From Pirellulaceae bacterium (lineage in GTDB: Bacteria > Planctomycetota > Planctomycetia > Pirellulales > Pirellulaceae): a stretch of DNA of 64,000 nt. The notes below the pieces were generated by a model. The model worked only from the letters and a program-made list of their open reading frames with translations, did not search any database and was not told the DNA's origin. Position numbers and translations under genes: made by a program. The stretch spans positions 186,001 through 250,000 of the forward strand of contig BPJV01000002.1 in assembly GCA_026004795.1 (NCBI GenBank). The letters run 5' to 3'. Position 1 is the first letter of the stretch; each line of letters opens with the position of its first letter. Shown in pieces: positions 12,472-45,455 of the stretch.

Positions 12472-12604
12472 CACCAGCTCGCGGGCTCCCCAGCCGACAA
12501 GGTAAGGTCCTACGATTTACCGTGAGTTTGCGGTAAGCGTGCGGGCTGGAAAAAACTTGGGATCGAATGGGGGGGCGGCTGAGTGGGGTAGATGATGGAG
12601 GGAG

Positions 12605-13325
12605 CTAGCGCCGTGCTGGGGCTTGCTCAGGGCTCTGTTCAGACGCTTCAGAAGATGGACCCGCCTGGGCAAGCTCGGCCTGACGCTGAGCGTAGTTCCA
12701 TGGTAGCCAGGCGTCAGGCCGTGTTGCGACGTCGTCGGCGTGGCGAAGCAACGCTACCAGATACTGATAAGGATTGATGCGGTTCAATTCGCACGTATGG
12801 ATCAGCGTCATGTAGACGTCCCCCGCCTCCGCTCCGCCGGGTGAGCGATAGTAGAGCGAGTTCTTGCCGTGCAAAATCGATTTCTTCAGGGCTCGCTCGG
12901 CCACGTTGTTATCCAGAGGAGCGCCGGCAACTCGCAAGAACTGGGGCAGCCCCTCCCAGTTCTTGAGCATGGAGTTGATCGCTTGCCCAAGCGCTGAATT
13001 CGGCTCCACCCGCCGGTCGTCCAATTGCCGGGTCAGCCATTTGTGCAGGTGCGCCCATCACCCGCCTGCTCTTGGCACGGTGCAACGCCAGCCGCTTCTT
13101 GTGAGACAATCCCTTGCGCCGCGCCTCGGCATCCACGCGATAGACGTGGCTGAGCTGCCTCAGCACATACTCCGTCTCTTCGGGAAATACGTCGACCAGG
13201 TCCACGAAGTTCCGCCGCGCGTGGGCCAGACAGTGGGCCACGATCGTTCGCAGCACATCAGGCATGTTCCACGACAACGCATCGCACATCTGGATCGGCG
13301 CACCCAGATCTTTCCCACCGCCAGA
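12605..13325 (-). pseudogene. tnpC: IS66 transposase (TnpC), C-terminal half, frameshifted
   Basis: One frame gives DLGAPIQMCDALSWNM, IVAHCLAHARRNFVDLVDVFPEE and KKRLALHRAKSR. After a frame change near 13055-13062 a second frame continues with HLHKWLTRQLDDRRVEPNS, GQAINSMLKNWEGLPQFLRV and APLDNNVAERALKKSILHGK, then IHTCELNRINPYQYL. This matches the DDE-domain end and C-terminal domain of IS66 transposases in correct order. The N-terminal half, with the first catalytic Asp residues, is missing. It is non-functional. Confidence 0.8.
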
Positions 13326-13334
13326 GAGCTCACC

Positions 13335-13394
13335 AATACCAGCACGACGCGCAAGCGAGTGAACCAGTACAACCACGATGCGCCAGCGAGTGAA
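13335..13394. repeat. Tandem pair of REP-like units inside the IS66 remnant
   Basis: Two head-to-tail units, AATACCAGCACGACGCGC..GCGAGTGA (13335-13362) and a diverged ..CCACGATGCGCCAGCGAGTGAA (13364-13394), match the arms of the hairpin at 35326-35397 and 45259-45350 (ACCAGCACGAAGCGCCAGCGAGTG). They lie exactly at the junction between the tnpB and tnpC fragments, so the repeat and the internal deletion of the IS are linked in place. Confidence 0.6.
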
Positions 13395-13419
13395 CGCGCA
13401 GCACCGCCCCCAGATTCTC

Positions 13420-13511
13420 GCCCGCATGCCGATGCCCTTGCGAAAATCGGCCGGCTCGACCGCCACCAAAATGCGCATGTGCGGGGTGATCTGCAGCACG
13501 GCCACTACTCC
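13420..13511 (-). pseudogene. tnpB: IS66 TnpB, N-terminal fragment
   Basis: QITPHMRILVAVEPADFRKGI is the highly conserved start of IS66 Orf2 (TnpB). Similarity ends about 20 residues in, where the sequence runs into the repeat junction. A short overlap with the end of the tnpA frame is as in complete IS66 elements. Confidence 0.75.
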
Positions 13512-13969
13512 TCGCGAACCAGTTGGCTGAGCGTGGCCAGGTCGGGCGTTGTGCTTCCCTTCCAACGCAGGGTCAGCTTGGTGCCGCCGCCGTTTTCGAA
13601 TTCCAATTCGCATTCCGCTTGCGGATTGACGTTCGTTACCGGCGCCAGTTCCACGAAGGCCCCAGCACCGCCACGACGACGCTTCTTCGGAGCATCAGCG
13701 GCCTTACCCCGTGCTCCACCACGACCGTCCAACCGTCTTTGCAGGGTATAGTAATCGAGCTTCAGCGTTTGGGCCGTCTTTGAGACGCCGTGCCTGCGAG
13801 CGACCTGGCATGCCAAATCCCACAGTTCATCTGGAATCCGGCCGCGTCCCGACTTTGCCCCCCTCCACTGCCTGAACGCTTCCACAGCCTGCTCGAAAAG
13901 CCGATCGTTGGTTGCAGTAGAATCGTTCGTCGCAGTAAGACGCTCGTTCGTTGCAGTCAACTGTTCCAT
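13505..13969 (-). CDS. tnpA: IS66-family accessory protein TnpA (helix-turn-helix)
   Basis: 154 residues. The segment RIPDELWDLACQVARRHGVSKTAQTLKLDYYTLQRRLDG is a helix-turn-helix like that of IS66 Orf1 proteins. The C-terminus (ECELEFENGGGTKLTLRWKG) is the usual beta tail, and it is followed directly by tnpB. The N-terminus contains a low-complexity repeat (LTATNER, LTATND, STATND) probably caused by short tandem duplication. The frame is intact but the rest of the element is not. Confidence 0.65.
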   Translation of the reverse strand: MEQLTATNERLTATNDSTATNDRLFEQAVEAFRQWRGAKSGRGRIPDELWDLACQVARRHGVSKTAQTLKLDYYTLQRRLDGRGGARGKAADAPKKRRRGGAGAFVELAPVTNVNPQAECELEFENGGGTKLTLRWKGSTTPDLATLSQLVREE

Positions 13970-14060
13970 GGAACGGAGCTCCTTTCGGCTAGAGGACCAA
14001 ACTCACCTCCAGCCTACCCGTTCCCCCAAAATCCCTCACACACGCTTACCGCAAACTCAC

Positions 14061-35101: not shown

Positions 35102-35160
35102 GGTGGGCTTTCTCCACCTGCGCGACCACAGCGCGGATTGCGTGGCTACTTGCTCTCGAC

Positions 35161-35455
35161 GTAACCATTCACGGCTCGGTCGAAAGGGCGAGGCTGCTCC
35201 CGAGCCGGTTCCGCAGCCCACTTGTCCTGTGCGGCTCAGCCGGAGCCTCGCCCTCCCACCATCGCAACCCGTTGCGTAGGCCGTGAACGGAGACGTGTCA
35301 GCCAGCAACGACGACGCGCTTGCTTACCAGCACGAGGCGCCAGCGAGTGTGTAACCGTGAAACCACCTCGATTCACTCGCTGGCGCTTCGTGCTGGTATT
35401 GAAAAACGGGATTGCCCCGGCTCAAAAATACTACCTCAAAGCGTGAACGGTTACA
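35161..35455. mobile_element. MITE-like composite repeat, copy A
   Basis: GTAACCATTCACGG at the left end is repeated inverted as CGTGAACGGTTAC at the right end (35442-35454). CTCTCGAC occurs directly on both sides (35153-35160 and 35456-35463), an 8-bp target duplication. The interior has two parts. A GC-rich hairpin (GGGCGAGGCT ... AGCCTCGCCC) lies within 35161-35290. A 24-bp inverted repeat (ACCAGCACGAGGCGCCAGCGAGTG, 35326-35349, against 35374-35397, one mismatch) forms the other. It encodes nothing. GTAA ends and 8-bp duplications are those of IS66 elements, suggesting cross-mobilisation. Confidence 0.75.
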
Positions 35456-35474
35456 CTCTCGACTGCTGCCGTCG

Positions 35475-37127
35475 CTACCGAATTGGCAACCGATGTTGCG
35501 GCGGAGCATCGTTGCCGGGGGACGATGGCGTGGCGGTTGACGGGACCGTCTGGGCACGGCGCTCTTGGGAAAGCTCCTCGAGATCGACGTCGCTGGCTGC
35601 TGCTTCTGCTAACAACTCGGACATCAATGCATCCTCGGGGCGCAGGAGCAGACTCCAGTAATGCAGCATGCCGAATCGCTCGCTGCGCGTGCCGCGAATT
35701 ACCAACTGCCACACGCCTTTGGCATTCGTACCTTGGAAGGCGCTCAAGCCAGCTTGTCGCTTCGTCACCGCTTCGGGTAGGAATCGCCCGCGAAAGGGAG
35801 CTCTTCCCTTGACGACGGGAGTCTCCGCATGATCATCAAAAATCGTATCCTCGAAATGATCGCCACTTCCTCCCACCTCGGTAAACAGTTCGACGCGCCG
35901 ACCGTCGGGACCGATCAAATAGGCATCCAACGATGCCACATTGGTGTGAGTGATCGACAGTTGCAATTTGATATCGCGGATTGGCAAATCCTCCGCGATA
36001 TGGATTTCCGTGACAACGGAAGCCCGTGGAGGGAGGATGGTCGCCAGGCGATGGGAGAATTCCCCTCCCACTGCTGCCCTGCTGCGCAGCACTTCCTGGG
36101 CGGTCAGCAGTCCATCATCATTGGTATCCAGGCGAGTGAACTCTTCCATTTTCAGGGCATCCCATTGCTTGGCAAACTCTGCCATCGATACTTGGCGATC
36201 CCCGTCGGCATCGCGTTCATAGAACCAACCAGGCAGGCCCTCGGTCAGATCTCCTGCCTGCTGCTGAAGTTCCTCTACGTAGTTTTGCAGTTCGTCGCGC
36301 GATAAGGCCCCATCATGGTCGAGGTCCAAACGACTGGTGGGTATCCCCATCGCTGCTGCTTCTTGCGATTCCAGCCGTCCATTGCGGTTGCGATCGAAAC
36401 GGCCCAACAAGCTAGCTGTCAGAAAGTAACGTGTTCCCCCTTCGCGCCACCAACGATTTCCATCTTGCTCTGGCCGCGATCGGCGTTCGGCATCCTGGAG
36501 GCGCATCTCCTCCAGCCGCTCCGCCTGACGGCGCAATTCCGAGGCCTGATCGTCCAACAGCCGCCGCCGTGCGTAGCGTTGAGCCAACTCCAAGCGGCTC
36601 AGCCGATCATCCCCATTGGCATCGCTGTCAAACGGATCGATGTGCGTCCATCGTCCGCGCTGGGCCTCACGGCGGTCGATAAAACCGTCGTCGTTACGAT
36701 CGTACCGCCGCAACGTTTGGTCGGCTTCCTCCAAATCGGCCCGTGTGTAGGGATACCTCACTTCCGGTAAGCCGAATTCTGGAATCAGCGGTTGTTCGTC
36801 ATCGAGCTCAAAAGGGCGAATGCCATTGGTCGGCGACAGATCAATCCGTTCGTCGGCGACCCCATTCTGCTTGGCAAAATACACCCGCGCGCATCGTTGC
36901 CACGTATCGATGCTGTACTCACGGTCCAAACGCAGACGAAAGGCCGTGGCTATCCGCTCCAGATAGGGGCGAGCCAGTGGGGTGATCTCGTGTGGCTGCA
37001 GTTGACCGTCTCTGTTGGTATCGAGTTGTTCCAAAGATTGGCGGAGTGTTCCTTGGGCATGAAGACCAGGGAGAGCAACCATGTGGCACACAACGAGCAT
37101 GAGCATCGTGAGTCGCCAGCGCATCAT
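35475..37127 (-). CDS. Exported EF-hand protein with C-terminal P-domain
   Basis: 550 residues with a signal peptide (TMLMLVVCHMVALPGLHAQ); GGAG lies 8 nt before the start. At least five calcium-binding EF-hand loops are visible: LDTNRDGQLQPHE, YDRNDDGFIDRRE, SDANGDDRLSRLE, DRNRNGRLESQE / DLDHDGALSRDE, and ERDADGDRQVSMAE with LDTNDDGLLTAQE. The C-terminal part (about 385-500) resembles a proprotein convertase P-domain (LSITHTNVASLDAYLIGPDGRRVELF, DTIFDDHAETPV, GVWQLVIRGTRSERFGMLHYWSLLL). It is probably a calcium-dependent surface or periplasmic protein. Its stop lies 20 bp from MITE copy A, so its 3' region was hit by the insertion. Confidence 0.82.
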   Translation of the reverse strand: MMRWRLTMLMLVVCHMVALPGLHAQGTLRQSLEQLDTNRDGQLQPHEITPLARPYLERIATAFRLRLDREYSIDTWQRCARVYFAKQNGVADERIDLSPTNGIRPFELDDEQPLIPEFGLPEVRYPYTRADLEEADQTLRRYDRNDDGFIDRREAQRGRWTHIDPFDSDANGDDRLSRLELAQRYARRRLLDDQASELRRQAERLEEMRLQDAERRSRPEQDGNRWWREGGTRYFLTASLLGRFDRNRNGRLESQEAAAMGIPTSRLDLDHDGALSRDELQNYVEELQQQAGDLTEGLPGWFYERDADGDRQVSMAEFAKQWDALKMEEFTRLDTNDDGLLTAQEVLRSRAAVGGEFSHRLATILPPRASVVTEIHIAEDLPIRDIKLQLSITHTNVASLDAYLIGPDGRRVELFTEVGGSGDHFEDTIFDDHAETPVVKGRAPFRGRFLPEAVTKRQAGLSAFQGTNAKGVWQLVIRGTRSERFGMLHYWSLLLRPEDALMSELLAEAAASDVDLEELSQERRAQTVPSTATPSSPGNDAPPQHRLPIR

Positions 37128-44523: not shown

Positions 44524-45455
44524 GGGTAATTACACTTTTTCTGTCGCGTTGGCTCGCTCCTGAAGGTCACCTCTCGACACCTGAGCCCCACCGTCCTGTT
44601 TGCTGGCCATTCAAGCCTACTGCCCCCCGAACAAGCAGCGGTTTCCCCAGCGATAACGCTGGTCGCCGCCCAAGAAAAACACGTCGACGGCGCAGAATGA
44701 CCGACCAAAACATCGGAAATTCCACTGCAGACCACTACCGCACGAGCCCGACCATCGTAGCCGGACAGATGCGCCAAGTGCCAAGAGATCGTTGACAAAG
44801 GTGAGTCCATCGAGGCGGGGTTTCGTCACTGGTCCAGAATGCGAATATTTCTTGTTCTAGACTTTGTCCCTCGCGAGATCAACCACCGGGTGCTAACGGG
44901 CCGCCGTTACCAGGACTTGCCCAGAACCTGCCGCTGGCGCATGGCGGCGATTCGGTTGGTAGCCGATCGAGCCCCTTGGTACGGCCACTCCTGATGATCC
45001 GTTCAGTACCGTGTCGAACATCGTCCTGGTATCGCGGGTAGCAACGTTCGAAATAGAAACCGTCGTGCGGCCCTCTATCACAATCGCCTCCATGGGCGAT
45101 CACTCCTTTGCTGTAACCGTTCACGGCTCGGTCGGAAGGGCGAGGCTGCTCCCGAACCGGTGCCGCAGCCCACTTGTCCTGTGCGGCTCAGCCAGAGCCT
45201 TGCCCTCCCACAATCGCAACTCGTTGTGTAAGCCCTGAACGACGACGCGCTTGCTTACCTGCACAAAGCGCCAGCGACTGCGTATCCCTGCCCCCCCTGA
45301 AACCACCTCGACTCACTCACCTCACTCGCTAGCGCTTCGTGCTGGTATTGATTAATGGAAGTCCCCCGCCCAAACTACCTCGGAGCGTGAACGGTTACCT
45401 TTTGCTTCCGTGGCCAAAGCATCGGTACGATCGTGTCAAGCAATGGCGCCCCGCT
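44524..45455. other. Long non-coding region containing MITE copy B
   Basis: 932 bp without a credible gene. The insertion element at 45113-45398 occupies the right third; the remainder (44524-45112) shows no family or RNA that I recognise. Confidence 0.4.
45113..45398. mobile_element. MITE-like composite repeat, copy B
   Basis: It begins GTAACCGTTCACGG and ends CGTGAACGGTTAC, the same termini as copy A and in the same orientation. The flanks CCTTTGCT (45105-45112) and CTTTTGCT (45399-45406) match at seven of eight positions, a slightly decayed 8-bp target duplication. Internal parts follow the order of copy A: the GC-rich GGGCGAGGCT...AGCCTTGCCC hairpin, then GACGACGCGCTTGCTTACC, then the AAGCGCCAGCGA / TCGCTAGCGCTTCGTGCTGGT inverted repeat. 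It is 9 bp shorter than copy A, mainly a deletion at the junction of the two modules. Confidence 0.72.

Follow-up and report, generated by a model that had tools for sequence, protein, structure and literature searches.

The question raised by this locus is how a short non-coding sequence, bounded like an insertion sequence, came to lie beside a gene in a Pirellulaceae bacterium, and which transposase is likely to have moved it. It lies in a window of 64,000 nucleotides, the whole stretch of DNA that was analysed.

A short element beside an EF-hand gene

The sequence-only reading of the window had described a non-coding element of 295 bp with 13-bp terminal inverted repeats (TIRs) and a perfect 8-bp duplication, placed after the stop of an EF-hand gene. 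Its coordinates are exact, and an EF-hand/P-domain gene on the minus strand does adjoin the element, here called copy A. The features are:

35161..35455, plus strand: MITE copy A, 295 bp including an extra A at 35455 (basis: own-genome loci and alignment A1)
35153..35160, unstranded: left 8-bp target duplication CTCTCGAC (sequence; significance across 11 copies)
35456..35463, unstranded: right 8-bp target duplication CTCTCGAC (sequence; significance across 11 copies)
35161..35173, plus strand: left TIR GTAACCATTCACG (sequence)
35442..35454, minus strand: right TIR GTAACCGTTCACG, as reverse complement (sequence)
35185..35254, unstranded: GC-rich inner hairpin AGGGCGAGGCT...AGCCTCGCCCT (fold with RNA parameters; conserved stretch in alignment A1)
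35325..35398, unstranded: central palindrome with two inverted ACTCGCTGGCGCYTCGTGCTGGTA half-sites (sites in the window, the own genome and relatives; alignment A1)
35475..37127, minus strand: flanking gene, EF-hand and P-domain protein (domain search)

The two TIRs of copy A are identical at 12 of 13 positions and its duplication is a perfect 8 bp, with the extra A at 35455 separating the right TIR from the duplication; the same 1-bp offset is found in two further copies, L002 and L010. The stop of the flanking gene is 11 bp from the right duplication, which places copy A just beyond the 3' end of that gene, and the element is overlapped by short reading frames only. An internal TIR-like sequence, GTCTCCGTTCACG (35294, minus strand), closes the left module, and several partial copies stop near this site. 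The whole element folds far better than its shuffled versions (z -8.84, folded with RNA parameters).

Copies in the host genome and their target duplications

The host assembly (5.59 Mb in 17 contigs, 96.8% complete) contains at least 46 matches to the element, the best 40 of 47 candidates having been scored. We grouped these into 15 loci with body sequence (L001-L015), whereas each remaining match either covers the palindrome alone or is a second hit at one of these loci. Both ends are present in 11 of the 15; the other four (L009, L011, L014 and L015) are partial and one-ended and were left unscored for duplications. One further copy lies in the window:

45113..45398, plus strand: copy B (L006), 286 bp, with duplication CCTTTGCT / CTTTTGCT, 7/8

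The copies are 199-338 bp long, too short for a transposase gene. Their left ends begin with GTAA in 8 of the 11 two-ended copies (ACAA in L007, GCAA in L010 and TTAA in L013), and their right ends in 10 of 11 (GTTA in L003). Flanking duplications match at 8/8 in five copies and at 7/8 in four, at 6/8 in L012 and at 5/8 in L008, so that nine of the 11 reach at least 7/8. The mean match is 7.2/8, against 2.9/8 for the flanks of different copies (110 mismatched pairs), and the observed sum was reached by none of 20,000 permutations, eight bases per side being scored and a 1-bp offset being allowed for the observed and null values alike. Chance palindromy, against which the earlier reading had set real transposition, is excluded by these figures, and the genome-wide check on which that reading could have failed, an absence of fixed ends and duplications elsewhere, instead turned up both.

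Short length, the lack of a transposase gene, TIRs, target duplications and occurrence in several copies together identify the family as MITEs, and the GTAA-starting TIRs and 8-bp duplications are those of the IS66 family. Body identity to copy A is 72-93% over the aligned parts, which implies that there has been no fresh movement of the family. Elsewhere in the genus, in 14 further genomes, the left part of the element (positions 1-155) gave a single 27-bp match.

IS66 elements resident in the host

A PF03050 search of the host genome gave 24 matches, some of them fragments, with all 27 candidates scored. The full-length resident IS66 elements are of two kinds, type A of about 3.16 kb with ends GTAAGCGCCCA (GTAAGCGCCCAGCAG) and type B of about 3.0 kb with ends GTGAGTTTGCGG; these ends were mapped by self-comparison, with the type-A match L063 and six fragments left out. 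One copy of each type was checked and found to contain TnpB and DDE_Tnp_IS66 ORFs, whilst the first ORF matches HTH_Tnp_1 just under the cut-off in type A and matches nothing in type B. Inspection by eye shows 8-bp duplications for L140, L142 and L146-L149, and none for L143, L150, L151, L152 or L153. Like the MITE, then, these classical elements have ends starting GT(A/G)A and, in several copies, 8-bp duplications; unlike it, they carry a TnpB ORF and a different TIR. As parents of the MITE they were rejected, their ends departing from its own beyond the first four or five bases.

The host assembly does not appear to encode a partner with the right ends either. The transposase of L280, an IS66 element from another genus described below, has no tblastn match there at E<=1e-20 among the best 6 of 27 candidates, and none of the 24 host PF03050 matches is closer to it than E 5e-9.

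Two further sites in the host deserve mention. At L031 (C1:161510) and L032 (C1:616799) a related end, GTAACCGTTCACGG-GTTGGTTGA, lies near an IS66-B-like end and short tandem repeats; these were counted as one event because their flanks look homologous by eye. In the window itself, 12522-14060 is a type-B copy from which, relative to L146, about 1.5 kb of the middle is missing, replaced by about 117 bp with two half-sites of the MITE palindrome.

Single-ORF IS66 elements with the same ends in other genera

The sequence-only reading had proposed looking for a full-length IS66 bounded by GTAACCGTTCACG, and such elements do exist, in other genera of the family, with 8-bp duplications and an IS66 transposase. 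One is the 2508-bp element represented by L280 and L270, which has GTAACCGTTCACGG at both ends and an 8/8 duplication (CGGATCGA), and encodes an IS66 transposase about 470 aa long. This protein matches the NCBIfam model NF033517 ('IS66 family transposase') at 276 bits, the cut-off being 180, as well as PF03050, which is also matched by the transposases of L281 and L293. It has matches at E<=1e-20 in 36 of 241 genomes of the family, and 30 loci (L280-L309) were returned with it.

Pairs of ends were listed twice, first requiring ends of at least 11/16 together with a duplication of at least 6/8, or ends of at least 15/16, and then by ends alone with no duplication required. GTAAC[C/T]GTTCAC ends flank the transposase on both sides in 10 of the 30 loci, all in other genera of the family, and eight of these ten have perfect 8-bp duplications (L280-L284 and L292-L294), with the 1-bp offset of copy A in L292, L293 and L294. 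No duplication was found in the paired loci L285 and L290, the frame of L290 being broken. Seven of the ten paired elements are 1.49-1.61 kb long and consist almost wholly of a single frame of 472-496 codons; the frame of L284 is interrupted by a stop, and in L292 the duplicated pair spans 2377 bp, with an inner end nearer the transposase. Related ends, GTAAC[C/T][A/C]TTCA, with 8/8 duplications are found at L296, L298 and L300. Neither L295 nor L303 has a duplication at its end pair; L303 belongs to the L229 remnant, which does have one at its outer pair.

That remnant, in a congener of the host, is 3029 bp long, with the same ends, an 8/8 duplication at the 1-bp offset and a broken IS66-like transposase. 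Between its ends, at L229 3985-5007, is an ORF of 340 aa with no Pfam or NCBIfam match, possibly a passenger gene.

An autonomous relative with the ends of the MITE and an IS66 transposase is thus at hand. The likeness seen is confined to the terminal 13-16 bases or so. L281, L282, L283, L284, L293 and L294 share with the MITE the terminal GTAAC[C/T]GTTCAC and a perfect 8-bp duplication, and differ from it in being 1.49-1.61 kb long with an IS66 transposase frame, L280 being longer still at 2508 bp. With one frame, and ends unlike those of types A and B, the paired elements do not appear to be classical TnpA/TnpB IS66 elements. One ORF, GTAAC-type ends and an 8-bp duplication instead agree with published descriptions of the ISBst12-like single-ORF group, beside which we set them by description.

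Several transposon families make duplications of about 8 bp, and the MITE could in principle belong to another DDE family with this habit. Such an origin is hardly credible when an IS66-type transposase lies between these very ends in 10 paired loci, loci that were returned by a search for IS66 transposases only.

End type and transposase clade

A quick maximum-likelihood tree was made of 34 IS66 transposases of our choosing, with short fragments left out. Thirteen of them form one branch (SH-aLRT 99%), and 12 of these 13 are flanked on one or both sides by a GTAAC[C/T]GTTCAC end, none being assigned for L286. The resident types A and B are in another branch, where the ends are GTAAGCG or GTGAG. 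L295, which is not in the clade, has an end with one mismatch, GTAACCGTTCAGG, well away from its frame. End type follows transposase clade where the ends are known, 10 of the 21 rows outside the branch being without determined ends.

This bears on whether the resident TnpB elements, of type A (GTAAGCGCCCAGCAG) or type B (GTGAGTTTGCGG), might have mobilised the MITE across the mismatch between their ends and its own. The host genome contains multiple copies of them whose transposase frames are open, and the duplications read by eye in several copies are of the right length. However, their ends part from GTAACCGTTCACG after four or five bases, whereas the single-ORF IS66 elements found elsewhere match 12-14, and the association of end type with transposase clade, where ends are known, also speaks against them. 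We regard mobilisation by the resident elements as improbable.

Spread of the end sequence

In the host's family, 38 of the 241 genomes contain the 15-bp end pattern GTAACCGTTCACGSC, with a total of 279 sites against 17 hits for the reversed pattern in the same genomes. The sites are concentrated, with 95 and 76 (171 together) in two genomes and 108 in the other 36; the totals are our sums from a per-genome table. Across the phylum, sampled evenly with 392 genomes, the pattern is found in nine genomes, the host included, and outside the host's family it gives 9 sites against 7 control hits, which indicates that the enrichment belongs to that family. A Clostridia contig with a 22-bp end (L324) was rejected as a relative; only 23 bp are shared and the match looks like chance.

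Twenty stretches around GTAACCGTTCACGSC sites contain many short elements with differing interiors. When each end is paired with its nearest partner, duplications of at least 7/8 are found in 11 of 18 short elements, or in 9 of 16 if a tandem array that contributes three of the 11 is counted once. L230 is mispaired by this rule and was counted as a miss, although its 342-bp pairing has a 7/8 duplication.

Some of these stretches have structures of their own. At L216 3000-3592, in the genome with 95 end sites, a 163-bp element with these ends is repeated three times in tandem. Short hairpin-like sequences, which consist almost entirely of the end and its inverse on either side of GGCYTTCGGCC, are seen at L221 3139-3173, L229 3042 and 5033, and L232 2992, and one larger element in L229 contains the same hairpin start at two places in direct orientation.

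The number of sites per genome reaches 95. Among the seven other genomes with at least 7 sites, a single one gave a match to an L280-type transposase, and that a fragment, with up to 6 candidates scored in each. A tentative picture, somewhat less probable than its negation, is of a long-lived network of shared ends within one bacterial family, in which the GTAACCGTTCACG TIR has been reused by many interiors, the transposase is scarce in genomes rich in these ends, and MITEs may outlive their transposase to be remobilised by IS66 elements from other genera.

The central palindrome

In alignment A1 the 11 two-ended copies have three parts in common: a left module (about 130 bp) that contains the GC-rich hairpin, the central palindrome, and a right module (about 55 bp). 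The palindrome is absent from L012 and L013, and one half of it is kept in L010. By our count its half-site has 33 sites in the host genome at no more than 2 mismatches, 16 of them inside elements and 17 elsewhere. Sixteen of the other 59 genomes of relatives match the element, among the matches listed (up to 12 candidates scored per genome), and these matches fall nearly all on the palindrome. The central palindrome of about 75 bp is a separate dispersed repeat that occurs outside the element too. Within the host genome the MITEs could then also be carrying a second, independently dispersed sequence as cargo, an extension of the network idea that we hold with equal reserve.

The element as a whole might likewise be taken for an ordinary dispersed repeat, a REP- or ERIC-like palindrome spread by recombination and flanked by duplications through chance. 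The 17 of 33 palindrome sites outside elements, the palindrome in relatives and the strong fold of the element would all suit such an origin, but the fixed termini and the duplications of at least 7/8 in nine of 11 copies do not, nor do the same ends bounding different interiors in other genera, where 11 of 18 are well duplicated. This explanation is very improbable, and for the whole element it is refuted by the fixed ends and duplications of the 11 two-ended copies.

Effect on a neighbouring gene

Copy L002 (L002 1501-1773 and flank) lies inside the 3' end of a gene that we take to be transporter-like, and the right end of the MITE is read in frame to give a new tail, ...TTNVTVHAPR, and a stop codon. 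In seven congeneric loci (L311-L317, matches of at least 600 bp; six shorter matches, L318-L323, were left out of this empty-site comparison) the gene has a stop of its own, and the 60 bases beyond it contain no MITE end. TIR-like sites are absent from six of these loci, and L316 has one, which was not placed.

Reading frames that overlap such elements can mislead, as in this copy, and the elements may explain many repeats in the host's bacterial family. That one end sequence is common to many different short elements across that family adds to their interest.

How the element is likely to have moved

Set out above are the ends themselves, 8-bp duplications at many of the copies, complete IS66 elements that share the ends, and an end type that tracks one transposase clade. 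With these in hand, it is highly probable that the 295-base element was moved by a borrowed single-ORF IS66 transposase recognising GTAACCGTTCACG ends. The MITE, encoding no transposase, would have depended on one in trans; a transposase of the single-ORF type, supplied in this way, would bind the GTAACCGTTCACG ends, and insertion by 8-bp staggered joining would duplicate 8 bp of the target. A transposase of this clade most likely did the moving, by cross-mobilisation.

The sequence-only proposal of an IS66-type MITE, a non-autonomous passenger of IS66, holds up insofar as IS66 elements with the same ends and 8-bp duplications are present in other genera, and it can be sharpened: the family is IS66 and the parent of the single-ORF kind, not of the resident TnpB kind, with no parent found in the host assembly. 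The 72-93% identity of the copies, a transposase that was not found in the assembly and the near absence of the left 155 bp from congeners suggest past activity followed by loss of the parent. On this evidence a partner was probably once present in the host genome and has since been lost, or lies beyond the assembled contigs, and the elements have probably ceased to move in this host. With an end sequence and candidate parents in hand, and a host in which no parent has been recognised, cross-mobilisation becomes testable.

Comparison with known systems

A named relative is ISUnCu16, annotated as IS66-like on an Aeromonas salmonicida plasmid, which has nearly the ends of the MITE (GTAACGGTTCACCC / GTAACCGTTCACCG). 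It resembles the MITE in having GTAACCGTTCAC at one end and GTAACGGTTCAC at the other, with a perfect 8-bp duplication, AACTGAGT; it differs in being autonomous, 1531 bp long with one ORF, and from another phylum. Its transposase is about 30% identical to that of L280. No clear ends were found for relatives on Nostoc and Sphaerotilus plasmids.

Classical IS66 ends are described, in the text available to us, as beginning GTAAGCG (PMC11946415). The one-ORF ISBst12 group was reported to be actively transposing only recently, according to the accessible part of PMC12898284, which assigns to it ISDge4, with ends GTGACTACTCAGCA / GTAACTGCTCAGCA, and describes an 8-bp direct repeat made by ISDge4 in real transposition. 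ISDge4 is autonomous, unlike the MITE, and its ends agree only partly with GTAACCGTTCACG (PMC12898284).

A literature search for the 13-base end sequence itself found no paper. In the available portions of PMC3733652, PMC9769881, PMC12898284, PMC12888890, PMC11946415, PMC3189936, PMC9208149, PMC3281130, PMC11578231, PMC6807381 and PMC6053426, no MITE is assigned to IS66; one of them describes a MITE with a 4-bp repeat inside a gene fragment (PMC12888890).

The element is a further case of a kind already known, the MITE probably mobilised in trans. MITEPsy1 of Pseudomonas syringae, MITEPsy3 and MITEPye1 of Paracoccus are, from the excerpts available, bacterial MITEs thought like this one to be moved in trans by the transposase of an insertion sequence (PMC3189936, PMC6053426, PMC11578231). 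They differ in family, MITEPsy1 being assigned, with a query, to IS5, MITEPsy3 to an IS630 element and MITEPye1 to IS1182 (PMC3189936, PMC6053426, PMC11578231). MITEPsy1 also differs in its 4-nt duplication; it was itself trapped moving, whilst its presumed parent was not seen to move, in the excerpt concerned (PMC3189936). MITEPye1 is described as forming a long stem-loop (PMC11578231), a trait that it shares with the present MITE.
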